Shown here one piece after another: positions 11,501-60,157 of a DNA stretch of 64,000 nt. How positions within the stretch are numbered: the first letter of the stretch is position 1; every line of letters starts with the position of its first letter. Source of the stretch: Saccharopolyspora rosea (GTDB taxonomy: Bacteria; Actinomycetota; Actinomycetes; Mycobacteriales; Pseudonocardiaceae). The notes under the pieces are model-generated. The model was not told where the DNA came from. It searched no databases and worked only from the letters and a program-made list of their open reading frames with translations. A program made the position numbers and the translations under genes. The DNA is taken from contig NZ_CP102826.1 in NCBI RefSeq assembly GCF_025643595.1, positions 3,844,001 through 3,908,000 on the forward strand, in the 5' to 3' direction.

Positions 11501-11778
11501 CACCGACCGGTACCGTCCCGCTCGAACAGGTCCGGCTCACCGCGATGGGTTGGTACTTCCGGATGTTCGCCGACTGGCAGCCGAATCCGGTCGCTGTGCC
11601 GACGTTGTTCGTGCGACCGGACGACCCGTTCCGCGAGAGCCACCGGGACACCGCCTGGCGCGCCCAGTGGCCGCTCGCGCACGACGCGGCGCACACCCCC
11701 GGCGACCACTTCACCATGATCAGCGAGGGGGCGGCCGGAACCGCGGAGGTGATCGCCACCTGGCTGGAGTCGCTGTGA
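5599..11778 (+). CDS. Terminal-module type I polyketide synthase (KS-AT-DH-KR-ACP-TE)
   Basis: 2059 aa. It performs the last extension and releases the chain. An N-terminal coiled docking helix (residues 1-33) precedes KS (34 to about 460, VDTACSSSL). The AT has GHSLG and HAFH at nt 7879-7890, predicting malonyl-CoA. The DH (nt about 8395-9200) keeps His and the later LLDATLH Asp, but its HxxxGxxxxP motif reads [10 protein letters not shown], with Asp for Gly. The KR has GGTGTLG, a TDD variant of the LDD motif and catalytic NYAAAN. The ACP has LGFDSL (nt about 10750). The thioesterase (nt about 11110-11770) has GHSSGG with Ser1918 and a terminal GDHF histidine. The start is ATG with an upstream AGAGTG-like site, 38 nt after the previous PKS. 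TE makes this the end of an assembly line: macrolactone or free acid release. Confidence 0.95.
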
Positions 11779-34128: not shown

Positions 34129-34170
34129 TCGTACACTGTACCGCTAGCGTAGTTGGTACAGCGTACGAAT
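34127..34170. promoter_or_regulatory. 16-bp inverted repeat operator between TetR and monooxygenase
   Basis: Left arm 34127-34142 (ATTCGTACACTGTACC) and right arm 34155-34170 (GGTACAGCGTACGAAT) pair at 15 of 16 positions around a 12-nt spacer. Each arm also holds its own GTAC-N3-GTAC half-palindrome, so two TetR dimers could bind. The left arm overlaps the repressor's start codon. Confidence 0.75.
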
Positions 34171-34188
34171 ATGAATCGGGAGCGGAGC

Positions 34189-43722: not shown

Positions 43723-43907
43723 GTCCACCACGGTGGCGGCGCGCGACCCGCGGTGGCAGGGCGCTGTCTTCCTGGGAGTGCCACACCCACGCTGTCAACG
43801 GGCGCCGCGACGCCGGTGCGGCGCAGGCCGAACCCGTCGCCCGGCGGGCGCGGCCCGGGCCCGCCACTGCTCGCCGAAAGGCCCGGTCTCCGCCGGCTGC
43901 GGACCGG

Positions 43908-44750: not shown

Positions 44751-44828
44751 GGTGTTCCCTCCCCGGCTTTCGTCCTCATCGGACGGTCGCGGGCCGGACA
44801 CCGACGCCGCGGACAGCACCGGCGCGTC

Positions 44829-44880
44829 AGGTATACCGACCTGTTTACCCACGGCCGCGACTATACAGGTCGGTATACCT
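44829..44880. promoter_or_regulatory. Perfect 16-bp inverted repeat over the hydrolase promoter
   Basis: Arms 44829-44844 (AGGTATACCGACCTGT) and 44865-44880 are exact reverse complements around a 20-nt spacer. On the minus strand the spacer contains a -10-like TATAGT (44865-44860) with TGGCAC 17 bp further up. Such symmetry with GGTATACC and ACAGGT is typical of TetR-family sites. No TetR gene is adjacent. Confidence 0.75.
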
Positions 44881-44974
44881 CAGTGCCAGTCCCGGTGCCG
44901 GGAGCACGTGGCGCCAACCGAAGACCACGGCGCCGCGGCCACCGGATCGCGGTGGCCGCCCGTGGCGCACCGGC

Positions 44975-45760
44975 TCACGCGCCGCCCGGCAGGCGCCCCC
45001 AGGCGCTGACCATGAGCGGTCCGAAACCGGTGGACTCGCCGTCGTGCCACAGCCGGTGGAACGCGTCGAGGTCCGCCTGGGTCAGCAGTCCCCCGCCCAG
45101 CAGGTGTGGCGCCAGCTGGTCGACGAACATCTCCCACAGCGGCACGCCCCGCTCGCGGTCGGCGGTCAGCGGCCTCGGTTCGGCGCGGAACCCGACGTCG
45201 TCCAGCCCGGCGCGACGCAGCGCGCGGGGCAACGTGCGCCCGCAACACGGGTCGTAGGACATCGTGTCGAACAGTTCCCGCAACGCCCGCAGGACGCGTT
45301 CGTGGGCCGGGGAAGGCGGATCCACGGTCGACACCGTGGACCAGTCGAGGTCCTCCACCACCAGCCAGCCGCCCGGCCGCACCGCCGCGACCATCGCACC
45401 GATCGCGTCCTCGGCCGACGGCAGGTGCTCGACCAGCAACCGGGCGTGCACGAGGTCGAAGTGGTCGGCGGGCAGCGGGTCCGCGGTGATGTCGGCGGCC
45501 AGGACCTCGACCTGACCGCCCGCCAGCGGTTCCAGGTAGCGGGTGTCGTTGTCGACGGCGAGCACGTGCCCACCGGGTCCGACGCGGTCGGCGAGCATCT
45601 CGACCACGCTGCCCCCACCGGCGCCGATGTCCGCGCACCGCCAGCCCGGCGCGACACCGATGCGGTCGAACACGGCCGCCGTGCCCGGGTCGTAGTGCGC
45701 GGCCAGGTCGTCCAGCCGGGTCTTCTCCGCGTGCCACGCGGGATCGAGCAGATAGGTCAC
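44975..45760 (-). CDS. SAM-dependent class I methyltransferase
   Basis: 261 aa. SAM motif I CADIGAGGGSVVEMLADRVG near residue 44, the acidic motif II in VLAVDNDTRYLEP, and motif III/IV FDLVHARLLVEHLPSAEDAI. The C-terminal half has a CCG pair and charged helices but no metal site. It follows the acyl ligase by 72 bp on the same strand and is the last gene of the minus operon of the PKS/isonitrile cluster, so it could methylate the product. It could also be independent; the gap is larger than within the operon. Confidence 0.85.
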   Translation of the reverse strand: MTYLLDPAWHAEKTRLDDLAAHYDPGTAAVFDRIGVAPGWRCADIGAGGGSVVEMLADRVGPGGHVLAVDNDTRYLEPLAGGQVEVLAADITADPLPADHFDLVHARLLVEHLPSAEDAIGAMVAAVRPGGWLVVEDLDWSTVSTVDPPSPAHERVLRALRELFDTMSYDPCCGRTLPRALRRAGLDDVGFRAEPRPLTADRERGVPLWEMFVDQLAPHLLGGGLLTQADLDAFHRLWHDGESTGFGPLMVSAWGRLPGGA

Positions 45761-45832
45761 GACTCTCCCTTTCGGTCGAAGGTGGTGGCGAACCGCGGGT
45801 TCGCACCGGTCACGTCTTCTCCGGTCGCCAGA

Positions 45833-47398
45833 TCAGTTGACGGCCCGGTCGCGTCCGCTCCAGAACTCCTCGCGGAGCACGCGGCGCAGGATCTTGCCGC
45901 TGGGGTTGCGGGGGACCTCGTCGACGAACGCGTACCGGGTGGGGATCTTGAAGTCGGCGATCCGCCCGCGCGCGAAGGCCCGCAGCTCGTGCGGTGCCAC
46001 CGATTTCCCCTGGTGCAGCACGACGAACGCGTGCACCGCCTCGCCCCACCGGTCGTCCGGGACCCCGACCACCGCGACGTCGAGCACCGCGGGGTGCGCG
46101 CTGAGGGCGTTCTCCACCTCGGCGGGGTAGATGTTCTCCCCGGCGCGGATGATCATCTCCTTGATGCGGTCTTGGACGTGGACGTAGCCGTCGTCGTCCA
46201 GGTAGCCCGCGTCGCCGGTGTGCACCCAGCCGTCGACGAGCGTGGCCGCCGTCGCCTCCGGCAACCGCCAGTACTCCAGCATGCGGGCGGGCGTCCTGAT
46301 GCAGACCTCGCCGACCACCCCGGTGCCGACGTCGCGACCGTCCCGGTCGACGACCTTCAGCTCGATCCCCGGGTACGGCCGACCGGCCGCCCGCAGCCGC
46401 GGACTGCCGGGCACGTGGTCGGCCGGGGGCAGGCACACCGCCGTGTTCCCGGTCTCGGTCAGGCCGTAGATCTGCGCGAACTCGCAGCCCATCGTGTCCA
46501 GGCAGCGCTGCAACAGGGATTCGGAGATGGGCGAGCCGCCGTAGACGACCTTGCGCAGCGCGGCGAAGTCCGCGGGGCGGACACCGGGTTCGGCCAGCAG
46601 CATCAGCAGCATCGCGGGCGCCAGGATGGCGGTCGTGATGCCCCGGTCGCGGATCAGCTGCAGGACGTCCTCGGCACCGAAGGACCGCACGACCACGTTG
46701 GTGATCCCGGCGTTGAACCCCTGGGTGGCCCACCAGATCCCGCCGATGTGCGAGGCCGACATGCCGAGGAGGCTGATGTCGCTGTCCCGGAAGTCGATCC
46801 AGTCGAGGCCGTTGCTGTCCAACAGGTCGCGCACCGCGAAGAAGGTCCGGTGCGCCAGCACGACGCCCTTCGGGTATCCGGTCGTCCCGCTGGTGTACAT
46901 CTGGGCGATCGGGTCGTCGGGGTCGCAACCGCCGGGCAGCTCGGTTCCCGCGCCGGTCTCCCGCCACTCCCGCAGCTCCCCGACGGGAACCACGTCGCGC
47001 AGTTCCGGCAGTTCGGCCCGCAGCGCGCGGGCCACCGGCAGGAACTCCTCCTCGACGAAGAGCAGTTCGGCGCTGGAGTCCCGCAGGATGTACTCGACCT
47101 CGTCGGGTGCCAACCGCCAGTTCACCGGGACGAAGACCGCACCGCTCCGGGCGCAGGCGAAGAGCAGTTCGTAGCAGTGCTCCGACTCCTTGCCCAGGTA
47201 GGCGACGCGCGAGCCGCGGGTCAGCCCGCAGGCGCGCAACGCCCGGGCGGTCGCGGTGCTCTCGCGGTGCAGCGTCGCGTAGTCGACGGTGCGGTCCTCG
47301 TGGGCGATCGCGACGTGGTCCGGTCTGCTCCGCGCGTGGAAGGCCAGACGCGCGTCGAGCGTCCGCCCCTCCGGCCCGGGTTCGGTGATACCGGTCAT
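45833..47398 (-). CDS. AMP-forming acyl-CoA / acyl-ACP ligase
   Basis: 521 aa from ATG 47398. Adenylation motifs: MYTSGTTGYPKGVVLAHRT (A3), YGLTETGN (A5), HTGDAGYLDDDGYVHVQDR (A7/A8) and NPSGKILRRVLREEF (A10) with the catalytic Lys. No long FAAL insertion is visible. It is 13 bp downstream of the AT-less KS gene. Isonitrile clusters contain one or two such ligases (ScoA/ScoC, FadD10 in the Rv0096-Rv0101 locus). Here it would activate a fatty or isonitrile acid and load it on the discrete ACP or on the N-terminal ACP of the PKS. The substrate is inference. Confidence 0.9.
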   Translation of the reverse strand: MTGITEPGPEGRTLDARLAFHARSRPDHVAIAHEDRTVDYATLHRESTATARALRACGLTRGSRVAYLGKESEHCYELLFACARSGAVFVPVNWRLAPDEVEYILRDSSAELLFVEEEFLPVARALRAELPELRDVVPVGELREWRETGAGTELPGGCDPDDPIAQMYTSGTTGYPKGVVLAHRTFFAVRDLLDSNGLDWIDFRDSDISLLGMSASHIGGIWWATQGFNAGITNVVVRSFGAEDVLQLIRDRGITTAILAPAMLLMLLAEPGVRPADFAALRKVVYGGSPISESLLQRCLDTMGCEFAQIYGLTETGNTAVCLPPADHVPGSPRLRAAGRPYPGIELKVVDRDGRDVGTGVVGEVCIRTPARMLEYWRLPEATAATLVDGWVHTGDAGYLDDDGYVHVQDRIKEMIIRAGENIYPAEVENALSAHPAVLDVAVVGVPDDRWGEAVHAFVVLHQGKSVAPHELRAFARGRIADFKIPTRYAFVDEVPRNPSGKILRRVLREEFWSGRDRAVN

Positions 47399-47411
47399 GG
47401 TGGGTGTCCTT

Positions 47412-49235
47412 TCAGGATCGTTCGGCGTCCAGCCAGTAGCGCCGGCGTTGGAAGGCGTAGGTGGGCAGGTCGACCGATCTGGCGTCGGAATCCGGGAATG
47501 CGGTGCACCAGTCCACCGCACCGCCCCGGCAGAACTCGTCCACGAAGGACCGTTCGGGCGACCGCCGGCCGTCCCCCGGATCCGGGCCGTGCACCAGGCC
47601 CGGTGCCGAGCGGCCCTCGGCGAGGGCGGTCAGCGCCTCGCGGCGCCGCTGCGGTCCGGCGGCGACCACGCCGGCGCGGTGTTCCAGCGCCGCGCGCCCG
47701 GTCGCCAGCGACCGGGCGACGTCGACGTCGCGCAGTTCCGGGTGCTCGGCCAGGTGCTCGGCGAGCCGGGCGGCCTGGGCGCGCAGCGCCGGCGGCGAGG
47801 CCGCGGACAGCAGCCAGGGCACCACTTCGGGATCCGGTCCGGGTGCCGCCGGGGCGTCGCCGGGCGGGGCCTGTTCGACGACGACGTGCGCGTTGGTGCC
47901 GCTGACGCCGAACGAGGAGACCGCCGCCCGGCGGGGTTGCCCGGTCTCCGGCCACGGCAGCGCCTCGGTGAGCAGCCGGACGGCGTCGTCCTGCCACTCC
48001 ACGTGCGGTGACGGCTTCTCCGCGTGCAACGACCTGGGCAGCACACCGCGGCGCAGCGCGAGCACGACCTTGACCACGGCGGCGACGCCGCCCGCCGCCT
48101 GGGTGTGGCCGAGGTTGGACTTGACCGAGCCGAGCCGCAGCGGGCGACCCCGCGGCCGGTCGGCCCCGTAGGTGTCCAGCAGCGCCTGCACCTCGATCGG
48201 ATCACCGAGGGGAGTTCCCGTGCCGTGGCCCTCGACGGCGTCGATGGCGGCGGCCGGGAGTCCTGCCGCGTCCAACGCCTGGCGGATCATCTGCCGGTGG
48301 GCCTGGCCGTTGGGCGCGGTGAGGCCGTGCGAAGCGCCGTCCTGGACGACGGCGGAACCCCGCACCACCGCCAACACCGGCCTGCCTTCGCGACGGGCGT
48401 CGGACAACCGTTGCAGCGCGAGCATTCCGGCGCCCTCGGCCAGTCCCCAACCGTCCGCCGCGGCGGAGAACGACTTGGACCGCCCGTCCGCGGCGAGCGC
48501 ACCTCGGTGGGTGAAGGCCAGCAGCGTCACCGGGGTGGCCATCACGGTGGCTCCCCCGACCAGCGCCAGCGAGCACTCCCGGTTCCGCAGCGCGTGCACG
48601 GCGGAGTGCAGCCCGACCAGCGCCGAGGAGCACGCCGTGTCCACGGTGACCGCCGGTCCGCGCAGGCCCAGCGCGTAGGAGATCCGGCCGGAGGCCAGGC
48701 TCGGCACGCTGCCCACCAGCACGTCGCCGGCGAAACCGTCGGGAGGCCGCCGCACCGTGCCGCCGTAGTCGTTGTAGATCACCCCGGCGAACACGCCGGT
48801 CGCGCTGCCGCGCAACGACGTCGGGGCGATCCCGGCCCGTTCCAACGCCTCCCAGGCCGTTTCGAGCAGCAACCGCTGCTGGGGGTCGGTGGCCAGCGCG
48901 TCGTGCTCGGTCATCCGGAACGGTTCCGGGTCGAAGTCGGCGGCGTCGTGCAGGTATCCCCCCTTGCGCGGGCACTCCACCCCGTCGAGGCGGAGTGCCC
49001 GCTCCCAGCCGCGGTCGGACGGCAGGGTCGTGACGGCGTCCTGCTCGGCGAGCAGCAGGCGCCACAGGTCCTCCGGTGACCGGACACCGCCGGGGAAGCG
49101 GCAGGACATCCCGACGATGGCGATCGGTTCGCGCAACCGGTCCTCGGCGTCCCGCAGCCGCTGCTTGGTGCGGCGCAGTTCGAGCGTCACGCGCCGGAGG
49201 TAGTCGCGGAGCTGGTCGTCTGCTGGCATGGGCAC
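47412..49235 (-). CDS. PKS ketosynthase protein lacking its acyltransferase (docking-KS-linker only)
   Basis: 607 aa. An N-terminal docking coil (residues 1-34) leads into KS (35 to about 460) with Cys202 in [26 protein letters not shown] near residue 337 and SNLGHTQAAGG near 372. The usual FFGISPREA segment reads FRMTEHDALATDPQQ, so the KS is off the normal clade. The KS-AT linker continues to about residue 540, then the chain jumps to the AT tail and post-AT linker ([18 protein letters not shown]). All AT motifs and any ACP are missing. It starts 21 bp after the PKS at 49257-54920 and probably takes that protein's chain. Its extender or acceptor must come in trans. Confidence 0.92.
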   Translation of the reverse strand: MPMPADDQLRDYLRRVTLELRRTKQRLRDAEDRLREPIAIVGMSCRFPGGVRSPEDLWRLLLAEQDAVTTLPSDRGWERALRLDGVECPRKGGYLHDAADFDPEPFRMTEHDALATDPQQRLLLETAWEALERAGIAPTSLRGSATGVFAGVIYNDYGGTVRRPPDGFAGDVLVGSVPSLASGRISYALGLRGPAVTVDTACSSALVGLHSAVHALRNRECSLALVGGATVMATPVTLLAFTHRGALAADGRSKSFSAAADGWGLAEGAGMLALQRLSDARREGRPVLAVVRGSAVVQDGASHGLTAPNGQAHRQMIRQALDAAGLPAAAIDAVEGHGTGTPLGDPIEVQALLDTYGADRPRGRPLRLGSVKSNLGHTQAAGGVAAVVKVVLALRRGVLPRSLHAEKPSPHVEWQDDAVRLLTEALPWPETGQPRRAAVSSFGVSGTNAHVVVEQAPPGDAPAAPGPDPEVVPWLLSAASPPALRAQAARLAEHLAEHPELRDVDVARSLATGRAALEHRAGVVAAGPQRRREALTALAEGRSAPGLVHGPDPGDGRRSPERSFVDEFCRGGAVDWCTAFPDSDARSVDLPTYAFQRRRYWLDAERS

Positions 49236-49256
49236 CCTTCCCTCGCCCCGGTGCTG

Positions 49257-52200
49257 TCAGTTCGCGCCGAGTTCGTCGTCGATCAGCTCGAAGAGTTCTT
49301 CGTCGGAGGCGGCGGCCAGGTCGTCCGGGCGGTGCGCGGCCAGCAGGGCCCCGAGCCGGGCGAGCACCTCGTCGCGCTCCTGCGGGTCTGCCGCCTCCAG
49401 CGCGGTCTCCAAGCTGTCGAGGTGGGCCGATGCCACTCCCGTCGCGGCGGGTTCCGGGTCCGCGGGGGCGAGCCGGTTGCCGAGTTCCCGGGCCAGTTCC
49501 TCGGGTGTGGGGTGGTCGAAGACGACCGTCGGGGACAGCCGCAGGCCGGTCGCCTCGGCGAGGGCGGTGCGGAGCTGGATCGCGGTGAGCGAGTCGAACC
49601 CGAGCTCCGGGAGGGGCCGGTCGGGTGCGATCTCGTCGGGTGTGAAGCGTCCGAGCACGGCGCAGACCTGGTCGCGCACGAGGTCCAGCAGCGCCGCCTC
49701 GCGGTCGGGCCCGGACAGGGCCGCCATCCGGTCCGTCGAGCCGGTCCCGGTCGAGCTGCGCTGCTTCCGGGACCGGACGAGTCCGCTGAGCAGCGGTGGG
49801 ACGGTGGGGCGCTCGGACAGCGACGCGACGTCCACCCGCGCCGTCGTGAGCACCGGTTCGCCGGTGGCCGAGGCGGCGTCGAACAGCGCGAGGCCCTGCT
49901 CGGTGCGCAGCGGCAGCATCGCGATGCGGCGCAGCTGGGCGGCCAGCGCCTCCTGGTCCACCGCCTCGGTCAGGCCGCCGGTGTCCTCCCAGTACCCCCA
50001 GGCCAACGCGGTGGCGGGCAGCCCGGCGGCGCGGCGGTGGTAGGCCAGGGCTTCCAGCAGCGTGTTCGCCGCCGCGTAGTTGCCCTGCCCCGGAGCGCCC
50101 AGCGCCCCGGCGACCGAGGAGAACAGCACGAACCAGCGCAGCGGCAGGTGCTCGGTCAGCTCGTGCAGGTGCAGCGCGGCGTCCGCCTTCGGGCGCAGCA
50201 CGCGCGCGACCCGCTGCGGGTCGAGCGAGCCGATGACCCCGTCGTCGAGAACACCGGCGGCGTGCACGACCCCGGTCAGCGGGCGGTCGGCCGGGATCGC
50301 GTCCAGCAGGCGGGCCAGCGCGTCCCGGTCGCCGACGTCGCACGCGGCGGTGGTGACCGTCTGCGCGCCGAGCTCGGTGAGTTCGCGTTCCAGCTCGGCG
50401 CTGTCCGGCGTCGGTCCGCGGCGGCCGACCAGCAGCAGGTGCCGGATTCCCCGCTCGGCCACCAGGTGCCGGGCGAACCGGCTGCCGAGCGCGCCGGTGC
50501 CGCCGGTGATGAGCACGGTCCCGCCGTCCGGGGCCTCCGGGGCCGAACCGGTGGCGGCGGCGCGGACCAGGCGGGGCGCCCGGACCGCTCCGGCGCGCAC
50601 CGCGAGCTGCGGTTCACCGGTGGCCGCGGCGGCGGGCAGCGCTGCGACGGACGCGGCGTCCTCGTCGGTGTCCACCAGGGCGAACCGGTCGCCGTGCTCG
50701 CTGCGCGCGGACCCGACCAGCCCCCACAGCGCCGCGTGCGCCAGGTCCGCGACGCCCTCGTCGGGGCCCGCGGCGAGGGCTCCCCGGGTGACCACGACCA
50801 GGCGCGAGTCCGCCAACCGCTCGTCGGCGAGCCAGGTCTGCAGCAGTGCCAGGGCGCGGCAGGTCGCGGTCCGCACCCGCTCGGCGGTGTCGGCGCCGCT
50901 GTCGGATCCGGGCAGGTGCGGGGCGAAGACGACGTCCGGCGCGGTGCCACCGGCGTCGAGCGACGCGAGCAGCGCGGCCAGGTCCCGGTGCCGCTCGGCC
51001 CCCGGCACGGCCAGGTCCTCGCCCAGCACGGCCGCCGTTCCGCTCGGCGCGGGCGGGTCGACCTGCTGCCACCGCGTGCTGAACAGCGCGTCGCGGTGCG
51101 GTCCGCGGAGGGCGGCGAGCTGGTCTGCGGCCACCGGTCGCAGGGTCAGCTCCGCCACCGAGACCACCGGACGTCCGTCCACATCGGACGCGGTCAGCGC
51201 CACCGCGTCCGGTCCGACCGGCACCAGCCGGACCCGCGCCACCGAGGCGCCGGGCGCGTGCAGCACGACGCCGCGCCAGGAGAACGGCAGCCGCGCCCGC
51301 TCGGCGTCGAGCGCGACGGGGTGCAGCGCGGCGTCGAGGAGGGCGGGGTGCAGCAGATATCCCCCCGCATCACCGGCCGCCTCCGGCAGGCGCGCCTCGG
51401 CGAGGATCTCCGCATCGCGCCGCGACATCGCCGACAACCCCCGGAACGCGGGGCCGTAGTCGTAACCACGGGTGGCGGCCTGGGCGTAGAAGTCCTCGAC
51501 GTCGACCGGCGTGGCGTCGCCGGGGACGTCGAACGTGCCCGTGCCGGGAACGGCCGGGCTCAGCACGCCGGTGGCGTGCCGGGTCCAGGGACCGACGTCC
51601 GGGTCGCCGGGACGCGAGTGCACCGCGAGCGCGCGCCGCCCCGCCTCGTCGGCGGCCGAAACCCGGACCTGGAGCTGGACGTGCCCCTCGTCCGGGATCG
51701 GCAGCGGGGCTTCCAGCACCAGTTCGGCGATCTCCTCGCAGCCGGTTTCCCGTCCCGCGCGGGCCGCGAGTTCCACGAACGCCGTCCCGGGCAGCAGCGC
51801 CGTCCCGGCCACCGCGTGGTCGGCCAGCCACGGGTGCGTCCGCAGCGCGATGCGGCCGGTCAGCAGCGTGGCGCCGTCCTCGGCGGTGTCCACCGCCGCG
51901 CCCAGCAGCGGGTGCCCCGCGGCGTGCAGGCCCAGCGCGGCGGGATCGGCCGCCGAGACCGCCGGAGGGCGCGGCCAGTGGCGTTCGCGCTGGAACGCGT
52001 AGGTGGGCAGGTCCGTGCGCACCGGACTGACGCCCAGGACCGCCGACCAGTCCACGTCCACTCCGGACACGTGCGCCCGGGCCAGCGCGCCCGCGAACTC
52101 GTCGAACCCGCCCTCGCCGCGGCGCAGCGTGCCCAGCACCGCACCGCCGCGCGGTGCTGGGTGAAGGATCTGCTCCAACGGAGCGGTCAGCACCGGGTGC

Positions 52201-54920
52201 GGGCCGACCTCCAGGAAGATCCGGTGCCCCTGTTCCACCAGCGTCCGCGCGGCTGCCTGGAATTCGACCGGCTGGCGCAGGTTGCGGTACCAGTAGTCGC
52301 CGTCCAGTCCGGCGGTGTCGAGCACGTCCCCGGTCACCGAGGAGCAGAAGGCGGTCCCGGACGAGCGCGGGCGCAGGCCCGCCAGCGCCTGCCGCATCGG
52401 CTCTTCGAGCACGTCGATCTGGGCCGAGTGGCTGGCCCGGTCCATCGGCACGTGCCGCGCCCGGATTCCTTCGCCGTCGAGGTCGGTGACGAACCGGGCC
52501 ACCGCGTCCGGCTCCCCGCACACCACGGTCAGCTCGGCGGAGTTGATGGCTGCGACCGAAATCCGACCGTCCCATTCGGACAGACGACGCTCCACCTCGT
52601 CCCGGCCCAGCGGCACCGAGGCCATCGCGCCGCGACCGACCAGGTCCGTGAGCAGTCTGCTGCGCGAGCAGACCACGCGCGCCGCGTCCGGCAGGGTCAG
52701 CGCACCGGCCACGAACGCGGCCGCGATCTCGCCCTGCGAATGTCCGACCACGGCGGCCGGGTGCACCCCGCAGCTCCGCCACAACCCCGCCAGGCCGGTC
52801 ATCATCGCGAACAACGCCGGTTGCACGAACTCCACGGACTCCAGCGGGGTGTTCGGGTCGCCGCGGAGCACCTCGGTCAACGACCAGTCCAGGTACGGCG
52901 CGAACGCCTCCTCGCACTCGGCCACCCAGTCGGCGAATTCCGGCGAGGACTCCAGCAGCTCGCGCCCCATCCCCCGCCACTGCGCCCCCTGGCCGGGGAA
53001 GACCAGGACGACCCCGCCGTCCAGCGCGGAACCCGCGGCCGCGCGGGCAGGACGCCGGCCGTCCGCCAGCGCCCGCAGGTCCGCCACCGCCGACGCGCGG
53101 TCCCGGGCCACGACCACCGCCCGGTGCTCGAACGCGGTCCGGCTGCGCGCCAGGGCCCCGGCGATGGCGCTGTCGCTGCCCGCCGGGTCGGTGGCGAGGA
53201 AGTCGGCCAGACGACCGGCCTGCGCCCGCAACGCCGCCTCCGACCGGCCCGACACCGGCCACAGCACGGTCCCGTCCAGCGCGCCGGACTCGCCGCTCGG
53301 CTCGTCCTCGGTTTCCGGGCCCTGTTCCAGGATGACGTGCGCGTTGGTGCCGCTGATGCCGAACGACGACACCGCCGCCCGCCTCGGCCGGTCCACCGCC
53401 GGCCACGGCACCGGTTCGGTGACCAGCTCGACCGCGCCCGACGACCAGTCCACGTGCGGCGACGGTTCGTCCACGTGCAACGTCGCGGGCACGGTGCCGT
53501 GCCGCAGCGCCAACACCGCCTTGATCACCCCGGCCACGCCCGCGGCAGCCTGGGTGTGGCCGATGTTCGACTTCACCGACCCCAACAGCAGCGGGTGTTC
53601 CCGGTCTGCGCCGTAGGTCGCCAACAACGCCTGCGCCTCGATCGGGTCGCCCAGCGGCGTCCCCGTGCCGTGCGCCTCCACCACGTCCACATCGGACGGT
53701 GACAGTGCCGCGTTCGCCAACGCCTGCCGGATCACCCGCTGCTGCGACGGACCGTTCGGCGCCGTCAACCCGTTGCTCGCCCCGTCCTGGTTCACCGCTG
53801 AACCCCGCAGCACCGCCAACACCCGGTGTCCGTTGCGGCGCGCGTCCGAGAGGCGTTCCAACACCACCACTCCGGCTCCCTCGGCGGGGCCGAAACCGTC
53901 GGAGGCCGCGGCGAACGCGCGGCACCGCCCGTCCCGGGACAGCGCGCGCTGGCGGCAGAACCCGAGGAAGACGTCCGGACCCGCGAGCACGGTCGCCCCG
54001 CCGGCCAGCGCCAGGGAGCACTCGCCGTGCCGCAGCGCCTGCGCGGCCAGGTGCATCGTCACCAACGACGACGAGCACGCCGTGTCCACCGTCAGCGCGG
54101 GCCCCTCCAGTCCTAGCACGTACGCCACCCGGCCGGAGGCGACGCTGTTGTGCGTGCCGGTGATCCGGTACATGTCGCCGTCCGGCACGGTCTTGGCGAC
54201 CGCCGGGAAGTCGAAGTTCGCGATCCCGGCGTACACCCCGGTGCGACTGCCCCGCAACGACGACGGGTCGATTCCCGCGCGTTCCAGCGCCTCCCACGAC
54301 GTCTCCAACAACAACCGCTGCTGCGGATCCATCGCTTCCGCCTCGCGCGGCGGCACTCCGAAGAAACCCGCGTCGAAATCCAAGGCGTGGTCGAGGAAAC
54401 CGCCCTCGCGGACGTAGGAAGTGCCCTGCCGGTCGGGGTCCGGGTCGTACAGCGACTCCAGGTCCCAGCCCCGGTCGTCGGGGAACGGACCGACGCCGTC
54501 GCCGCCCGCGGACACCAGCCGCCACAGGTCCTCCGGCGACTCCACGCCACCGGGCAGTCGGCAGGCCATCCCCACGATCGCGATCGGCTCGTCAGCGGCG
54601 GAGACCGGTTCCCCGGCCGCGCCCGGCTCGTCGGCGGCCGAGCCGTTCCCGACGCGGGTTTCGAGGTGGGCGGCGAGCTGCACCGGGGTGGGGTGGTCGA
54701 AGACCACAGTGGACGAGATCGCGATCCCGCAGGCCGCGGTCAGCCGGTCGCGCAGGTCGACCGCGGTGAGCGAATCCATCCCGAGGTCGAGGAAGGACGC
54801 GTCGGTCGCCACGTCGGCGCGGTCGTCGTACCCGAGGAGGTCGGCCACCTGCTCGCGCACCAGGTCGAGCAGCGTCCCATCGGGACGCCCCGACCGGCCG
54901 GGCGCTGGTGTTGGATCCAT
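49257..54920 (-). CDS. Modular type I polyketide synthase starting with a bare ACP (ACP-KS-AT-DH-KR-ACP)
   Basis: 1887 aa; ATG 54920 with GGAGGAG 8 nt before. Domains: N-terminal ACP (LGMDSL, Ser50) with no AT or KS before it; KS 111 to about 535 (Cys282); AT near 625-900 with GHSQGE and RASH in place of YASH, closest to methylmalonyl-type; DH with intact HAVAGTALLP and a late LLDAALH; B-type KR with GGTGALG, LDD and NYAAAN; ACP (LGFDSL); C-terminal docking helix EELFELIDDELG. A first ACP without AT implies loading by a ligase. The module would make an alpha-methyl (if methylmalonyl), alpha,beta-unsaturated thioester. First gene of the minus operon. Confidence 0.95.
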   Translation of the reverse strand: MDPTPAPGRSGRPDGTLLDLVREQVADLLGYDDRADVATDASFLDLGMDSLTAVDLRDRLTAACGIAISSTVVFDHPTPVQLAAHLETRVGNGSAADEPGAAGEPVSAADEPIAIVGMACRLPGGVESPEDLWRLVSAGGDGVGPFPDDRGWDLESLYDPDPDRQGTSYVREGGFLDHALDFDAGFFGVPPREAEAMDPQQRLLLETSWEALERAGIDPSSLRGSRTGVYAGIANFDFPAVAKTVPDGDMYRITGTHNSVASGRVAYVLGLEGPALTVDTACSSSLVTMHLAAQALRHGECSLALAGGATVLAGPDVFLGFCRQRALSRDGRCRAFAAASDGFGPAEGAGVVVLERLSDARRNGHRVLAVLRGSAVNQDGASNGLTAPNGPSQQRVIRQALANAALSPSDVDVVEAHGTGTPLGDPIEAQALLATYGADREHPLLLGSVKSNIGHTQAAAGVAGVIKAVLALRHGTVPATLHVDEPSPHVDWSSGAVELVTEPVPWPAVDRPRRAAVSSFGISGTNAHVILEQGPETEDEPSGESGALDGTVLWPVSGRSEAALRAQAGRLADFLATDPAGSDSAIAGALARSRTAFEHRAVVVARDRASAVADLRALADGRRPARAAAGSALDGGVVLVFPGQGAQWRGMGRELLESSPEFADWVAECEEAFAPYLDWSLTEVLRGDPNTPLESVEFVQPALFAMMTGLAGLWRSCGVHPAAVVGHSQGEIAAAFVAGALTLPDAARVVCSRSRLLTDLVGRGAMASVPLGRDEVERRLSEWDGRISVAAINSAELTVVCGEPDAVARFVTDLDGEGIRARHVPMDRASHSAQIDVLEEPMRQALAGLRPRSSGTAFCSSVTGDVLDTAGLDGDYWYRNLRQPVEFQAAARTLVEQGHRIFLEVGPHPVLTAPLEQILHPAPRGGAVLGTLRRGEGGFDEFAGALARAHVSGVDVDWSAVLGVSPVRTDLPTYAFQRERHWPRPPAVSAADPAALGLHAAGHPLLGAAVDTAEDGATLLTGRIALRTHPWLADHAVAGTALLPGTAFVELAARAGRETGCEEIAELVLEAPLPIPDEGHVQLQVRVSAADEAGRRALAVHSRPGDPDVGPWTRHATGVLSPAVPGTGTFDVPGDATPVDVEDFYAQAATRGYDYGPAFRGLSAMSRRDAEILAEARLPEAAGDAGGYLLHPALLDAALHPVALDAERARLPFSWRGVVLHAPGASVARVRLVPVGPDAVALTASDVDGRPVVSVAELTLRPVAADQLAALRGPHRDALFSTRWQQVDPPAPSGTAAVLGEDLAVPGAERHRDLAALLASLDAGGTAPDVVFAPHLPGSDSGADTAERVRTATCRALALLQTWLADERLADSRLVVVTRGALAAGPDEGVADLAHAALWGLVGSARSEHGDRFALVDTDEDAASVAALPAAAATGEPQLAVRAGAVRAPRLVRAAATGSAPEAPDGGTVLITGGTGALGSRFARHLVAERGIRHLLLVGRRGPTPDSAELERELTELGAQTVTTAACDVGDRDALARLLDAIPADRPLTGVVHAAGVLDDGVIGSLDPQRVARVLRPKADAALHLHELTEHLPLRWFVLFSSVAGALGAPGQGNYAAANTLLEALAYHRRAAGLPATALAWGYWEDTGGLTEAVDQEALAAQLRRIAMLPLRTEQGLALFDAASATGEPVLTTARVDVASLSERPTVPPLLSGLVRSRKQRSSTGTGSTDRMAALSGPDREAALLDLVRDQVCAVLGRFTPDEIAPDRPLPELGFDSLTAIQLRTALAEATGLRLSPTVVFDHPTPEELARELGNRLAPADPEPAATGVASAHLDSLETALEAADPQERDEVLARLGALLAAHRPDDLAAASDEELFELIDDELGAN

Positions 54921-55345
54921 GGAATTCGCTCCTCCAAAGCCCGCGCGAGGACGCGGGACGAGAAGAAATCAACGGCGCGGAATCAGAGGGATTGCCGACG
55001 GCCTTGTCGGCGGATGGCGGACAAGCCGTTCCGGTGGTCCTGTGATACGGCAGGAACACCGCGTCCCGCAAGGGATCCCAGCGCCGTCCGGCTCGCCGGG
55101 AAGGCCCGCGGAACCGGCGAACGCAACCCTCGGCAGCGCACATCACCGCAGTTCATCGGCGGAACCGGCGGCACCCGGCGGAACACCGCCGGCGACGTCG
55201 GACGTGATCCCGGACGCTTAGCGCACTTTTAGACCCCTTTTAGGAACCGGGTCCTTTCGTTGACATCCGTCCGCAAGTGCATTTTCGTTGCTCTCACCCC
55301 CGGTCCGGAGGAAAACCGTTCCCCAACCCAAACCGAGGTGCCGTC
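54921..55345. promoter_or_regulatory. Divergent control region of the PKS/isonitrile cluster
   Basis: 425 bp between the PKS (minus) and KAS III (plus) starts, without a gene. It should hold both operon promoters. Toward the KAS III side the GC falls and heptamer direct repeats and a TTGACA occur (separate entry). CTTGTC-N11-GACAAG at about 55003-55025 is a short inverted repeat. No clear promoter was seen on the PKS side. Confidence 0.6.
55226..55265 (+). promoter_or_regulatory. SARP-type direct heptamer repeats with TTGACA, upstream of KAS III
   Basis: CTTTTAG at 55226-55232 is repeated at 55237-55243, exactly 11 bp apart. SARP activators bind direct heptamers spaced one helical turn. A consensus-like -35 (TTGACA, 55260-55265) follows; the -10 is weak (around 55280-55288). 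The cluster encodes a SARP at 58934-59701. Confidence 0.6.
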
Positions 55346-56371
55346 GTGAGCATCAGCCGAAGATCCACCGCCCGAGCGGCCGTGTTGTGCGGAATCGGCG
55401 GCTGGGTTCCGCCCAGGGTCGTCACGAACGAAGAACTCTCGCAACGCCTGGCCACCACCGACGAGTGGATCACCACCCGCACCGGTATCCGCGAACGCCG
55501 CTTCGTCGAGCCGGGCGAGGCCACCTCCGATCTGGCCGTGGCGGCCGGAACTCGGGCGCTGCGCTCCGCCGGTGCGGTCGCACCGGACGCGGTCCTGGTC
55601 TCCACCGCGACCCCGGACCGCCCGCTGCCCGCCACCGCACCGCTCGTCGCGTCGCGGCTCGGCCTGCGGGACGCGGCTGCGTTCGACGTCGCCGCGGCGT
55701 GCAGCGGGTTCGTCTACGCCCTCGCCACGGCCGCCGGGATGATCTCGACCGGCGCGTCGCGGCGTGTCCTGGTGATCGGCGCCGACGTCTACTCCTCCAT
55801 CGTCGACCCGGAGGACCGCACCAACGCCATCATCTTCGGCGACGGGGCGGGCGCCGTGGTGCTGCGGGCCGGGGAGGACGACGAACCCGGCGCGGTCGGG
55901 CACTTCGTGCTGGGCAGCGACGGCACCGGGGAGGACCTGGCCATCGTCGCGGCCGGAGGTTCCCGCCAGCGCACCACCGACCGGTCACCGACCCGGGCCG
56001 AGCAGCACCTGGAGATGCAGGGCAAGAAGATCTTCCGGCACGCGGTGACGCGCATGTCCGGCTCCGCCCGGCAATCCCTGGCCGCCGCGGGCTGGAAGCC
56101 CGAGGAGGTGGACCACCTGGTGGCGCACCAGGCCAACCTGCGCATCCTGCAGTCGGTGGCCGACGAACTGGGCATCGACCACGAGCGCTGCGCCCGCCAC
56201 CTGGTCGACGTCGGCAACACCGGTGCCGCCTCCATCCCGCTGGCCCTGGACGCCGCCGCGGCAAACGGCGAACTGCGCCCGGGACAACGGGTGCTCCTGA
56301 CCGCCTTCGGCGCCGGACTGGCGTGGGGCTCCTGCGTCCTGCGCTGGCCCGACCTGGCAACGACAACGTGA
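55346..56371 (+). CDS. Beta-ketoacyl-ACP synthase III (FabH-like)
   Basis: 341 aa from GTG 55346. Catalytic triad all present: Cys119 in AAACSGF, His261 in HQAN, Asn291 in GNTGAA. It condenses an acyl-CoA with malonyl-ACP to a beta-ketoacyl-ACP, or transfers an acyl starter. The discrete ACP begins 10 bp after its stop, a natural partner. In this cluster it could make the short acyl chain that receives the isonitrile. Alternatively it is a spare FabH that protects the host if the product inhibits FabH. WITTRTGIRERR and the normal length point to a true FabH fold rather than a PKS starter-specific form. Confidence 0.93.
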   Translation: MSISRRSTARAAVLCGIGGWVPPRVVTNEELSQRLATTDEWITTRTGIRERRFVEPGEATSDLAVAAGTRALRSAGAVAPDAVLVSTATPDRPLPATAPLVASRLGLRDAAAFDVAAACSGFVYALATAAGMISTGASRRVLVIGADVYSSIVDPEDRTNAIIFGDGAGAVVLRAGEDDEPGAVGHFVLGSDGTGEDLAIVAAGGSRQRTTDRSPTRAEQHLEMQGKKIFRHAVTRMSGSARQSLAAAGWKPEEVDHLVAHQANLRILQSVADELGIDHERCARHLVDVGNTGAASIPLALDAAAANGELRPGQRVLLTAFGAGLAWGSCVLRWPDLATTT

Positions 56372-56381
56372 GGGACGAACG

Positions 56382-56639
56382 ATGAACAGCACCAGCTACG
56401 ACCGGTTGGTCGCCATCCTGCAGGACGTCCACGGCGTGACGCCCGAGGACACGACTCCCGAGACGACCTACCACGACCTGGGCGTCGACTCGCTCACCGT
56501 CGTGGAACTCACGCTCCAGCTGCAACGCGAACTCGGGATCGCGCTGGAGGACGACGAACTGACCGACGACCTCACCCTCGCCGAAACCGCGTCGCTGATC
56601 GACGCCAAGCTCGCCGAGCTGTCCCCCAGCTCGTCCTGA
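56382..56639 (+). CDS. Discrete acyl carrier protein
   Basis: 85 aa. [20 protein letters not shown] carries the phosphopantetheine Ser37; the rest is the four-helix ACP pattern and is strongly acidic. Position: 10 bp after KAS III and 46 bp before the ScoE-like oxidase. In isonitrile pathways a discrete ACP (ScoB) holds the unsaturated acyl group to which glycine is added. It may also serve KAS III and, in trans, the AT-less KS. Confidence 0.95.
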
Positions 56640-56685
56640 ACCACCGCGATCGCAACGACCCCTACGCACAGGAGTGGCAACGCAC

Positions 56686-57573
56686 ATGGAGATCGAGCCG
56701 CAGCAGGGCAAGAAGCTGGGCGTCACCGTCACCGGCTTCGACCACACCACGGCGACCGACGCGGACGTCGAGGCGCTCAAGCAGGCCGTCTACACCAGCA
56801 AGATCGCGGTCCTGAAGGACCAGGACCTCTCGCCGCAGCAGTTCCTGGCGCTGGGACAGCGGCTGGGACGGCCGGAGGCCTACTACGAGCCGATGTACCA
56901 CCACCCGGAGTTCCCCGACATCTTCGTGTCGTCGAACGTGCCGGAGAACGGCAAGCAGATCGGCGTGCCGAAGACCGGCAAGTTCTGGCACGCCGACTAC
57001 CAGTTCATGCCCGACCCGTTCGGCATCACGCTGATCTACCCGCAGGTCATCCCGCAGAAGAACCGCGGCACCTACTTCATCGACATGGGTGAGGCGTACC
57101 GGAGGCTGCCCGCGGAGTTGCAGGCGGAGGTCGCCGGGACCCGCGCCCGGCACAGCGTCCGCAAGTACTTCAAGATCCGCCCGCAGGACGTCTACAAACC
57201 GGTCTCCGAGCTGATCCAGGAGATCGAGCAGAAGACGCCCGAGGTGGTGCACCCGACGACGTTCAAGCACCCGATGACCGGCGAGACGGTGCTCTACATC
57301 AGCGAGGGCTTCACCGTCGGCATCGAGGACCCCGCCGGCGGCGAGGTCGACGGCGACCTGCTGAAGCGGCTGTTCGACGCGACCGGGCAGTTCGACGAGG
57401 ACCTGGAGCACGACAACATCCACCTCCAGGAGTTCGAGAAGGGCGACCTGCTGGTCTGGGACAACCGCAGCCTGATCCACCGCGCGCGGCACACCACCAC
57501 GCCGGAACCCACGGTCTCCCACCGGGTCACCGTGCACGACACCCGCAAGCTGTACGAAACGGAGGAGGTGTAG
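56686..57573 (+). CDS. scoE: Fe(II)/2-oxoglutarate oxygenase, isonitrile synthase (ScoE / Rv0097 type)
   Basis: 295 aa from ATG 56686 (AGGAG about 10 nt upstream; the GTG at 56674 is too close to it). TauD/TfdA fold: HxD at His102/Asp104 in FWHADYQ, distal His265 in LIHRARH. From memory, ScoE uses His132, Asp134, His295 for iron and Tyr96, Tyr97, Tyr101, Lys193, His299, Arg310 around the substrate. Here Tyr66, Tyr67, Tyr71, Lys163, His269 and Arg280 match at a constant offset of 30. Known reaction: oxidative decarboxylation of an N-carboxymethyl (glycine) adduct of a 3-aminoacid to the isonitrile. Followed after 4 bp by the ScoD-like gene. Identity as isonitrile-former is a strong inference. 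Confidence 0.85.
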
Positions 57574-57577
57574 GCAC

Positions 57578-58096
57578 GTGCACGCGGCCTCCCTGCCCAC
57601 CGACGCGGACCTGCTCGCCAACGTGCTGCGTCCGTACAAGCAGCACTGCGAGTACCTGAAGTCGGCGATCGTCACGCCGCGGGACGACACCACGATCACC
57701 CGGTGCGAGTTCGCCATCCCGGAGTCGTGCTACATCGACGACACCGGCCACCTCAACGCGGTCGAGGTCACCATCTGCTACAATCAGATGCTGTACTACA
57801 CGATCGCCGCGGCGGTCCAATGGGGACTCATCCCGGAGTTCAGCGGCTGGACGATGAGCGACTACTGGAAGCACCAGCTGCCGGACATCCTCATCGCCCG
57901 GTTCACCAGCCGGTTCCACCGGCCCATCGACCCGCGCGCCTTCGAGGGCGAGATCGAGTTCCGGTCGGTGCGGCGGCAGACCCCGGGAGGTGGCGCGCCG
58001 ATGCTGGTCGTCGACACCGGCTTCCAGTACTGGGACGCGGGAGGCGGCCGTTGCCGGGGCGAGGTGCACATCGCGGTGCTCAACCTCCCCGACTGA
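57578..58096 (+). CDS. scoD: ScoD / FcoT (Rv0098) family hot-dog protein
   Basis: 172 aa from GTG 57578, with GGAGGAGG 7-10 nt upstream and overlapping the end of the oxidase gene. The core YIDDTGHLNAVEVTICYNQM has Tyr52, Asn60 and Asn69. They share the spacing (8 and 9) of the conserved Tyr66, Asn74 and Asn83 I recall for FcoT of M. tuberculosis. GWTMSDYWKHQLPDILIARF, then TSRFHRPIDPRAF, continues the match. FcoT was first called a long-chain acyl-CoA thioesterase. Its homolog ScoD is reported to add glycine to an unsaturated acyl-ACP and release the adduct that ScoE oxidises. Tight pairing with the oxidase supports that role. Confidence 0.85.
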   Translation: MHAASLPTDADLLANVLRPYKQHCEYLKSAIVTPRDDTTITRCEFAIPESCYIDDTGHLNAVEVTICYNQMLYYTIAAAVQWGLIPEFSGWTMSDYWKHQLPDILIARFTSRFHRPIDPRAFEGEIEFRSVRRQTPGGGAPMLVVDTGFQYWDAGGGRCRGEVHIAVLNLPD

Positions 58097-58173
58097 CCGG
58101 TGGAAGGGTGGTCGGCCACGTCGCCGACCACCCTTCCCGCTCCCCACCCGCCGAACACCTGCGAGGGCTGCCG

Positions 58174-58920
58174 ATGACCCCCTCCCCGACGAAGAACCCG
58201 TGGATCCGGCGCTTCGGGCCGCGCCCGGACGGCGGTCCGCACGTGGTCTGCTTCCCGCACGCGGGCGGATCCGCGAGCTACTTCAGCCGGCTGGCGCGAC
58301 GGTTGGCGCCCGACGTGGCGACGCTGTCCGTGCAGTACCCGGGACGTCAGGAACGCCGCCGGGAGCCGGTCCCCACCAGCATCGACGAGCTGGCCGACGA
58401 CATCGCCGAAGCCCTGGCCCCGCTCCTGGCCGAGCGCCACGTGTTCTTCGGCCACAGCATGGGCTCGGTCGTGGCGTTCGAGGTCGCGCGCAGGCTGGAG
58501 GTCACCGGGACCGGTCCGCTGCGCCTGTTCGCCTCCGCGCGCCGCGCACCGTCCACTCCGGACACCAGGAAGGTGCACCTGCTCGACGACGCCGGGCTGC
58601 TGGGCGAGATGTCCCGCCTGGGCGGCACCGCGCAGACCGTGCTGGCCGACCCGGAGATGGCGGCGATGATCCTGCCCGCGGTCCGCGCGGACTACCGGGC
58701 CATCGGGAACTACTCCTGCCCGCGCGGCGCGGCCGTGCGGTGCCCGATCACGGTCGTCGTCGGCGACCGCGACCCGGTGGTCACCGCCGAGCAGGCGTCG
58801 AGCTGGCAGGAACACACGACGAGCGGGTTCGACCTCACCGTCCACCCGGGAGGGCACTTCTACCTCGACGACAACCTCGACGCGGTGGCACGGGACATCA
58901 CCGCCGCGCTGGCCGGTTGA
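58174..58920 (+). CDS. Type II thioesterase
   Basis: 248 aa from ATG 58174. FPHAGGSASYFSRLA, nucleophile GHSMGSVVAFEVARR, VVGDRDPVV (Asp) and HPGGHFYLDD (His). A close paralog of the thioesterase at 11931-12689. It clears dead-end acyl groups from the PKS, or releases the product, since no TE domain exists in this cluster. It is the last gene of the plus operon after a 77-bp gap and converges with the SARP gene (13 bp between stops). Confidence 0.92.
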   Translation: MTPSPTKNPWIRRFGPRPDGGPHVVCFPHAGGSASYFSRLARRLAPDVATLSVQYPGRQERRREPVPTSIDELADDIAEALAPLLAERHVFFGHSMGSVVAFEVARRLEVTGTGPLRLFASARRAPSTPDTRKVHLLDDAGLLGEMSRLGGTAQTVLADPEMAAMILPAVRADYRAIGNYSCPRGAAVRCPITVVVGDRDPVVTAEQASSWQEHTTSGFDLTVHPGGHFYLDDNLDAVARDITAALAG

Positions 58921-58933
58921 CGCCGGGGTTCGG

Positions 58934-59701
58934 TCATCCCGCCCGGGCGGGCGCGCCGTTCTCCCCGGCCGACAGCACGGTCCGTTCCAGGTCGCGCAGG
59001 GCCTGGCACGGCTCCAGGCCCAGCTCCTGCTTGATGACCCTGCGCGCGTGCTGGTACACGGCCAGCGCCTCGGCCCTGCGACCGGAACGGTGCATGGTGA
59101 GCATGAGCTGCCGGTAGAAGCCCTCGCGCAGCGGATACGCGTCGAGCATCGAGCGCAGCAGCTCGGTCGCCTCGTGGTGCCGTCCCAGCCTGATGCTCGA
59201 TTCCACCGCGGCTTCCGCGCACTCGGCCCGGACGTCGCCGAACCACCGGACGAATCCGTCGGCGATCGGCCCGCCGCCCAGACCGGGCAGCGGCGGCGAC
59301 TGGCACATCGCCAACGCCGACCGCAACGACCGCGCGGCGTCCTCGTGCTGCTGCGCGCGGGCGTGGCGGCGCCCGTCGCCGACCCGCTGCTGGAAGACGT
59401 GCAGGTCCAGTTCGCCGGGCTCGGTGCGCAGGACGTACCCGGGAGCCTCCGTGCCGATCGGATCGCCCCCGCCGGAGCGCCGCAACAGCTTGCGCAGCTG
59501 GGAGACGTGCACGTGCAGGGCGGCCGTGGCCCGCCGCGGCGGGTCCGCGGGCCACAACTCGCGGACCAGCTCCTCCCGCGAGACGATCCGGTCCGCCCTG
59601 ATCAGCAGGGCGGCGAGCAGTCGTCCCACCTTGGGTGCGCTGACGGCCGACAGCCCCCGCGCGCCCGCCACCTGGAGGGGCCCCAGAATCCGGTACCTCA
59701 C
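58934..59701 (-). CDS. SARP-family pathway activator (AfsR/DnrI/RedD type)
   Basis: 255 aa from GTG 59701 with AGGAG 8 nt upstream. N-terminal OmpR-like winged helix: RYRILGPLQVAG, ELVRELWPADPPRRATAALH, then VHVSQLRKLL. The bacterial transcriptional activation domain follows (ELDLHVFQQRV, YPLREGFYRQLMLTMHRSGR, then AEALAVYQHARRVIKQELGL). SARPs switch on antibiotic clusters by binding direct heptamer repeats. Candidate sites lie at 55226-55243 in the divergent cluster promoter. It lacks the ATPase/TPR extension of larger SARPs. Its position at the cluster edge marks the right boundary. Confidence 0.93.
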   Translation of the reverse strand: MRYRILGPLQVAGARGLSAVSAPKVGRLLAALLIRADRIVSREELVRELWPADPPRRATAALHVHVSQLRKLLRRSGGGDPIGTEAPGYVLRTEPGELDLHVFQQRVGDGRRHARAQQHEDAARSLRSALAMCQSPPLPGLGGGPIADGFVRWFGDVRAECAEAAVESSIRLGRHHEATELLRSMLDAYPLREGFYRQLMLTMHRSGRRAEALAVYQHARRVIKQELGLEPCQALRDLERTVLSAGENGAPARAG

Positions 59702-60157
59702 GAGTCGCTCCTCACACTCCGCGCCGGCTCGTTGACACCCGACGCCGACGGACCACGCGCACTCGGGGAACCGCCCGGCGGTCACCGGGATGCGTGCGGA
59801 GCAGCCGTGCTACGCCCGCGCAGCTCCGCCCCCGAGAGGCAGAAGTCCCACACCGACGACCACATCGTTGCTCCGGCCAGAGCGCACCAGCACCCCCACA
59901 TGGAGGGTTTGCCCCCCGCCGCCGGAGAGCTCAGTCCATACAGGACGGACGAGTTGCAGGGCGCGGACTGCTCCAAAGGAGTGGACATCGCCGATCACCA
60001 CCGGTCGCAGGTGGCGGGCCGCGATCCCGATCGCGACGACCGCGCGGCCCGGGGTCGTCCGAAGTGGACCACGGATTCAGGCGCGCCATCGGGACACCCG
60101 GACTTCGCAAGCGACCGAGCGGGGGTTCCGCCACCGGCACCGCCGACCACAACGAGT
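59702..60157. other. Intergenic region upstream of the SARP gene
   Basis: 456 bp without a supported gene; the open frames are GC-skew shadows. It must contain the SARP promoter. The right part (from about 60118) is a repeat end. Nothing else was identified. Confidence 0.5.

Follow-up and report, generated by a model that had tools for sequence, protein, structure and literature searches.

Organization of the locus

A stretch of 64,000 nucleotides from the Saccharopolyspora rosea genome (6.56 Mb, one contig), hereafter called the window, carries at positions 45833-58920 two operons that face away from each other. The plus-strand operon is an isonitrile-forming cassette, which consists of a β-ketoacyl-ACP synthase III (KAS III), a discrete acyl carrier protein (ACP), the oxidase ScoE and the glycyltransferase ScoD, and ends with a type II thioesterase (TE). 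The minus-strand operon encodes a type I polyketide synthase (PKS), a ketosynthase (KS) without acyltransferase (AT) domain, here named KS2, and an AMP-forming acyl ligase, followed by a methyltransferase. Judging from the gene content, the cassette, which is likely of chalkophore lineage and faces a one-module PKS, KS2 and the ligase, probably makes a short β-isocyano acid as polyketide starter. The locus comprises the following features:

44975..45760, minus strand: S-adenosylmethionine-dependent methyltransferase, likely a tailoring enzyme (Pfam Methyltransf_11)
45833..47398, minus strand: AMP-forming acyl ligase, predicted loader of the isonitrile acid onto Ser50 of the PKS (PF00501/PF13193)
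47412..49235, minus strand: KS2, N-terminal docking domain and ketosynthase, AT excised, without ACP (PF08990, PF00109 and PF02801, no PF00698)
49257..54920, minus strand: type I PKS, ACP-KS-AT-dehydratase (DH)-ketoreductase (KR)-ACP, with a bare N-terminal loading ACP (Ser50) (Pfam)
54921..55276, no strand: intergenic region between the divergent operons (sequence)
55277..56371 (start may be 55346), plus strand: KAS III, predicted starter of a short acyl-ACP (PF08545/PF08541)
56382..56639, plus strand: discrete ACP, ScoB-like (PF00550)
56674..57573, plus strand: ScoE, (3R)-3-[(carboxymethyl)amino]fatty acid oxygenase/decarboxylase, predicted isonitrile former (PF02668, NF049937)
57578..58096, plus strand: ScoD, (2E)-enoyl-ACP glycyltransferase of the FcoT family (PF10862, NF049938)
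58174..58920, plus strand: type II TE (PF00975; GHSMG and GGHF motifs)
58934..59785, minus strand: Streptomyces antibiotic regulatory protein (SARP)-type regulator (BTAD), likely the cluster regulator (PF03704/PF00486)

All genes named in an earlier note on this DNA were found with an open reading frame (ORF). Gene calls were picked by the GC content of codon positions, without curated annotation, and the ORF starts of relatives may be off. The ligase probably starts at 47398 (ATG) instead of 47521, and the TE probably at 58174. The absence of a non-ribosomal peptide synthetase (NRPS), which the note had also claimed, was borne out: Pfam detected no NRPS domain in 18 proteins encoded at 33379-59782 and in two at 14-11775, and tblastn of one condensation-domain query across the whole window gave no match at an E-value of 1e-3. 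An adenylation-domain query, likewise run against the whole window, matched the ligase only. No cytochrome P450 (P450) was found among the Pfam-scanned genes of the locus, two P450 queries had no match in the window, and the best match in the own genome to the P450 of related clusters reaches only 39%. Furthermore, the scanned genes at 42967-59782 contain no domain resembling the FAD-dependent glycine oxidase-like enzyme CmiS2; a FAD monooxygenase-type protein is encoded 7 kb off, at 34153-35745. The two large proteins at 14-11775, about 33 kb from the cluster, apparently form part of another, separate PKS of the modular type I; the second of them has a terminal thioesterase.

The isonitrile-forming cassette

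Both key enzymes of the cassette pass the NCBIfam equivalog cut-offs, ScoE with 513.9 bits against NF049937 (cut-off 400) and ScoD with 299.3 bits against NF049938, the model for (2E)-enoyl-ACP glycyltransferases (cut-off 250). Together with the Pfam matches of the ACP and the ligase, these scores bear out the joint occurrence of a ScoE-like oxidase, a ScoD/FcoT-like protein, an ACP and a ligase, from which the earlier note had started. A grouping of the oxidase with taurine dioxygenases had been set beforehand as the result that would speak against isonitrile formation, and the comparison was run: the TauD model yields 117 bits, below its cut-off of 313, versus 514 bits with the ScoE model, and the protein is placed with ScoE in a tree of 81 rows that includes no TauD outgroup. 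A function as taurine dioxygenase was rejected on these scores. The nearest chains in the PDB are the ScoE entries 6dch/6l6w for ScoE and 5wsx/5wsy for ScoD. All ten ScoE residues that were checked are conserved, namely the iron triad, which we take to be His132/Asp134/His295, and Tyr96, Tyr97, Tyr101, Arg157, Lys193, His299 and Arg310. Functions of most of the checked residues are given in PMC7949033. KAS III keeps Cys142, His284 and Asn314 and is only 40 and 41% similar to the two FabH-like copies of the genome (42 and 43% in a second comparison).

The own genome has a single FcoT-family match and four TauD-family matches, ScoE among them. FcoT matches occur in 2 of the 22 genomes listed for the same GTDB genus, with 351 further family negatives unlisted, some of them perhaps of the same genus; the match in one genome (G700, C127:76666-77121) coincides with the S. 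shandongensis locus L005.

Isonitrile loci and their assembly lines

Searching GTDB with the ScoE query gave 101 loci, the best 80 of which were examined with a threshold of 80 bits for the condensation domain. A condensation domain was found in 53 loci and a PKS with KS and AT in 15; none had both, and 12 had neither (L012 at a contig end, the partial cluster L028, five loci from Leucobacter/Agrococcus, and L074, L075, L079, L080 and L084). The PKS wiring of the isonitrile cassette is not unique to the window. The proposal that a PKS stands in place of an NRPS is supported for this locus; the clusters for amycomicin and aerocyanidin are precedents of such an arrangement.

A KAS III gene at most 2.5 kb upstream of scoE and on the same strand is present in 43 of the 53 NRPS loci, with 59-69% identity to that of the window, and in five of the 15 PKS loci, with 36-75% identity. 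KAS III is a usual member of isonitrile NRPS loci, separate from the PKS wiring, to which it had been assigned before. Because this arrangement is standard in NRPS loci without a detected PKS, the cassette seemingly needs no PKS to obtain its enoyl substrate. A role of KAS III as self-resistance FabH was set aside for its occurrence in the 43 NRPS loci. In L055 (~9002-10000) and L061 (~8823-10000), a KAS III also precedes ScoE, but the similarity is no more than 36-41%, which looks like a separate recruitment.

In five loci (L066, L067, L068, L069 and L070), neither an NRPS nor a PKS was found. In Leucobacter L068 (2-13180), the only one of them annotated with Pfam, ScoE and ScoD adjoin family 2 glycosyltransferases, a CtaG protein and a heavy-metal P-type ATPase. 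This setting may represent a third use of the isonitrile cassette, linked to copper.

The PKS, KS2 and the ligase

The reading of the PKS as starting with a bare ACP was confirmed: its serine is residue 50, the motif LGMDSL begins at residue 46, and neither a loading AT nor a KSQ precedes the module. Other isonitrile PKS loci (L062, L064, L071 and that of S. virginiae) have an ACP-like ORF standing alone ahead of the PKS. The AT carries GHSQG plus RASH, which we take to be the methylmalonyl type.

KS2 is indeed free of an AT, as had been stated, since PF00698 is lacking and the alignment shows a gap at the position of this domain. Its residues 36-542 align to the KS and linker of the PKS and residues 574-601 to the post-AT linker; the AT was therefore cut out of KS2. 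The catalytic residues Cys202, His337 and His377 are conserved, and Cys-His-His is intact in all eight AT-less KSs of the window type (defined below). Five of the six AT-less KSs from other isonitrile PKS loci lack at least one catalytic His: both are lost in one S. virginiae protein (KSb), L061 and L062, and one is lost in L063 and L064, while the second S. virginiae protein (KSa) is intact. In this respect, the loci L061, L062, L063, L064 and S. virginiae L115-L116 are unlike the window type. Among the best 120 of 7991 protein-database matches, 119 are not the window's own protein, and 15 of these cover at least 99% of KS2, with lengths of 604-658 amino acids and no AT domain. Two of the 15 (P0126 and P0130) lie on contigs whose lengths, 55,842 and 867,779 bases, equal those of contigs with ScoE matches. 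An origin of the AT-less KS2 by decay was set aside, as this state is common to all eight clusters, with an intact triad. The data point to a conserved terminal ketosynthase that lacks AT and ACP and has intact catalytic residues.

Related clusters

The same divergent layout recurs in three relatives from two families: in S. shandongensis, S. catenulae and S. benahoarensis (L106-L107 and L110-L113), ligase, AT-less KS, PKS module 2 and module 1 face KAS III, ACP, ScoE, ScoD and TE. This conservation supports the suggested link between cassette and PKS, and the idea that the PKS is an unlinked neighbor was set aside. Orthologs of the ligase (69-75% identity, same position) and of the discrete ACP (55-57%) are found in all three. 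A one-module PKS with AT-less KS and ligase, as in the window, is also present in S. fumigatiscleroticus and in L076-L078; in the latter, cassette and PKS are co-directional. These eight loci (the window, S. shandongensis, S. catenulae, S. benahoarensis, S. fumigatiscleroticus and L076-L078) are referred to as backbone clusters. A P450 adjoins six of them, in S. shandongensis, S. catenulae (67%), S. fumigatiscleroticus (54%) and L076-L078 (46-52%); none was found on the contig of S. benahoarensis, whose sequence stops about 4.3 kb beyond the ligase.

The methyltransferase at 44975-45760 seems to belong to the cluster, as relatives keep it beside theirs: genes with 61-69% identity adjoin the clusters of S. 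shandongensis, S. catenulae and S. pinistramenti. None is encoded on the 25.8-kb S. benahoarensis contig, and the best match in that genome, on another contig, reaches 42%. SARP genes (58-60%) occupy the same position in S. shandongensis, S. catenulae and S. pinistramenti; in the last species, ScoE, ScoD, TE, SARP and methyltransferase lie at a contig end. A second S. shandongensis methyltransferase (66%; contig C72, L108-L109) is located off the isonitrile cluster, next to a P450 that was matched in two pieces.

Gene trees

Trees were calculated for ScoE, KS, ligase and ScoD; the rows of the KS and ligase trees and of the 30-row sets were hand-chosen from the loci at hand. In the 81-row ScoE tree, the window forms a five-row group (99/93) with L005, L008 and L025, all PKS-type, and the partial L028. 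This group is nested in a clade of 56 rows (100/98), of which 51, nearly all from Streptomyces, are labeled NRPS; a condensation domain is present in 50 of the 51. Rows received the NRPS label by default unless their locus had been recognized as PKS-type or other (56 rows in the tree, 53 with a condensation domain; L012 at a contig end and L079 and L084, below the threshold, carry it without one). L010, for instance, has condensation, adenylation, carrier and reductase domains. The term chalkophore-type for this Streptomyces NRPS clade refers to gene content and closeness to ScoE, not to products. ScoE of L076-L078 belongs to a separate six-row clade (100/99).

The backbone genes group differently. 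In the KS tree (34 rows; one of 35 proteins, L064_m1, was dropped for want of a KS match), the eight AT-less KS2 proteins are monophyletic (98/94), and in the ligase tree (48 rows; one of 49, L140, was dropped because its match was too short), the same eight clusters are monophyletic (100/99), apart from the Streptomyces NRPS ligases. The ligase therefore travels with the PKS/KS2 backbone. The ligases of L146, L147, L148, L150 and L155, which are related and form their own clade (100/99), accompany an FcoT-family gene, with no ScoE match in the stretch examined; three of these five loci have PKS ketosynthase matches, which resembles clusters with a β-amino acid starter.

Approximately unbiased (AU) tests with 30 rows, for which the clades were named post hoc with the trees already seen, point in the same direction. 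Holding the eight clusters together was rejected by ScoE (p-AU 2e-60) and by ScoD (0.005), and forcing the four window-type ligases together with Streptomyces NRPS ligases was rejected by the ligase (0.0005). The simplest reading of these trees is an exchange, in which a KAS III-ACP-ScoE-ScoD cassette of likely chalkophore lineage came to sit on a PKS-KS2-ligase backbone that is elsewhere paired with another ScoE lineage. Judged by its genes, the window looks as if a PKS backbone had received a chalkophore-type cassette in a new pairing. This suggests, backed by the gene-tree tests, that the isonitrile-forming cassette is a portable warhead block that is re-paired with different assembly lines.

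Proposed pathway and alternatives

According to PMC11284099 and PMC7949033, ScoD-like enzymes catalyze the addition of glycine to an enoyl thioester with release of an N-carboxymethyl amino acid, which ScoE-type enzymes convert into a β-isonitrile. In the pathway proposed for the window, KAS III and housekeeping reductase and dehydratase activities would provide the free ACP with a short enoyl chain, probably crotonyl, in thioester linkage. ScoD would then add glycine onto C3 and release the acid, and ScoE would oxidize this product to the isonitrile, probably 3-isocyanobutanoate. The ligase would activate the isonitrile acid and load it onto Ser50 of the PKS, whose single module would add one unit, probably methylmalonyl, with KR and DH leaving a double bond. 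The predicted product is a 5-isocyano-2-methylhex-2-enoyl thioester (free acid C8H11NO2, calculated 153.079). KS2 might receive this chain via its docking domain and, because its Cys-His-His is intact, is proposed to carry out one further condensation with an acyl unit on an ACP in trans, for which the free ACP is the obvious candidate partner; this step is the least certain one and is put forward tentatively. If KS2 adds a C2 unit, the predicted acid is C10H13NO3 (195.090), and either predicted acid might occur as its methyl ester. Methyltransferase and type II TE would finish or proofread the product. It is also conceivable, if rather doubtful, that a copper-chelator cassette has moved here and that KS2 acts in trans, borrowing the free ACP or joining two isonitrile chains, which would lead to a polyketide chalkophore without peptide core.

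Of the two models offered in the earlier note, the one in which the isonitrile acid is made first and then passed to the PKS is favored, because NRPS loci without a detected PKS also have the block of KAS III, ACP, ScoE and ScoD and because the cassette of the window keeps its own KAS III and ACP. The second model, which fits less well, has the PKS build an α,β-unsaturated chain that is moved to the free ACP, perhaps via KS2, before ScoD and ScoE install the isonitrile. KR and DH without an enoylreductase would yield the enoyl thioester that ScoD requires, and for cremimycin PMC11284099 describes a PKS-made enoyl chain as the glycine acceptor of the ScoD-like CmiS1. However, this order of events would leave the N-terminal ACP of the PKS with no evident supplier of a starter, the methyl group that a methylmalonyl unit brings to the α-carbon is expected to slow the addition by ScoD, and ScoE and, weakly, ScoD are nearest to the lineage of the NRPS loci, whose cassettes have their own KAS III and ACP without a PKS having been found. 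We therefore consider it unlikely.

Several observations weigh against the starter pathway. The window lacks module 2, which is present in its three closest relatives, and the P450 found beside six of the eight backbone clusters; because these are missing, the cluster may have been reduced or partly inactivated. The KAS III cysteine motif reads ACSGF, versus VCTGF/VCTGL or VCSGV in the closest relatives. ScoD places the four window-type rows with the Streptomyces NRPS rows weakly (81/84). The AT has RASH where eight of ten other modules compared have YASH, and its methylmalonyl specificity is read from a motif. The ligase could equally form an acyl-CoA or charge the free ACP.

A degenerate cluster that has lost module 2, the P450 and the AT of KS2 and makes no product would account for the missing genes; nevertheless, all genes are open and their triads intact, the AT-less state is shared by all eight backbone clusters, and S. 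fumigatiscleroticus and L076-L078 have a one-module PKS as well, so that we regard such a loss as rather improbable. The divergent operons with their differing gene histories could also be taken for unrelated neighbors, an orphan cassette for isonitrile formation and an independent PKS next to it, but the pairing is kept in three relatives and, co-directionally, in L076-L078, and chance proximity is thus highly improbable. Production of an epoxy-isonitrile fatty acid of the amycomicin/aerocyanidin type, with the extra KAS III as a resistant FabH copy, draws on the description of amycomicin, in PMC13273461, as an isonitrile FabH inhibitor whose cluster groups in a network with those of type I PKSs, and on the S. 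virginiae locus, which likewise has a PKS, an AT-less KS and a ligase. It appears very unlikely: the window locus has no P450 (39% for the best match in the genome), KAS III is better read as biosynthetic in view of its place upstream of ScoE in 43 of 53 NRPS loci (59-69%), S. virginiae ScoE lies outside the window clade, and the S. virginiae AT-less KSb lacks both His, though KSa is intact. The starter pathway, with the isonitrile acid made first, remains our preferred reading.

Comparison with known isonitrile systems

What is new at this locus is the build of the cluster and not the isonitrile-PKS pairing itself, because amycomicin and aerocyanidin already pair isonitrile cassettes with PKS-type clusters (PMC13273461, which cites Zheng, Clardy and Liu 2024). 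Among the titles and abstract openings in the capped result lists of a literature search, which covered few subscription papers, none gave an account of a cluster of this type. With about 15 kb, the locus is compact and clonable and suited to a direct test of isonitrile starter loading on a PKS.

The diisonitrile lipopeptide (chalkophore) clusters sco, sfa/SF2768 and Rv0096-Rv0101 have ScoE, ScoD, an ACP and an acyl ligase in common with the window, and the known diisonitrile lipopeptides act as copper chelators, as stated in PMC9600254. In contrast to these clusters, no NRPS condensation domain was found in the window, its ligase is of the polyketide lineage, and PKS, KS2, TE and SARP are added. 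The clusters for amycomicin and aerocyanidin combine an isonitrile cassette with a type I PKS, as the window does, and use P450s for the epoxide and keto groups (PMC13273461). The S. virginiae locus (L056), whose assignment to the amycomicin type follows the species and the paper rather than a comparison with amc sequences, also has AT-less KSs and a ligase near its PKS. The window differs from this type by its KAS III and free ACP, its single module, the intact triad of KS2 and the absence of a detected P450, and the S. virginiae ScoE rows fall outside the window clade in the 81-row tree, whose rows do not include amc/aec reference sequences. The loci of S. shandongensis, S. benahoarensis and S. 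catenulae are closest, with the same gene order and orthologs of KAS III, ACP, ScoE, ScoD, TE, module 1, KS2 and ligase; they have an extra KS-AT-DH-KR-ACP module and, in two of the three, a P450. In the cremimycin-type CmiS1/CmiS2 pathway (PMC11284099), an FcoT-family enzyme attaches glycine to an enoyl thioester, and a PKS uses the resulting compound as its starter, which is the logic proposed for the window. In the window, ScoE replaces the FAD enzyme CmiS2, and the nitrogen would therefore end as an isonitrile and not as an amine.

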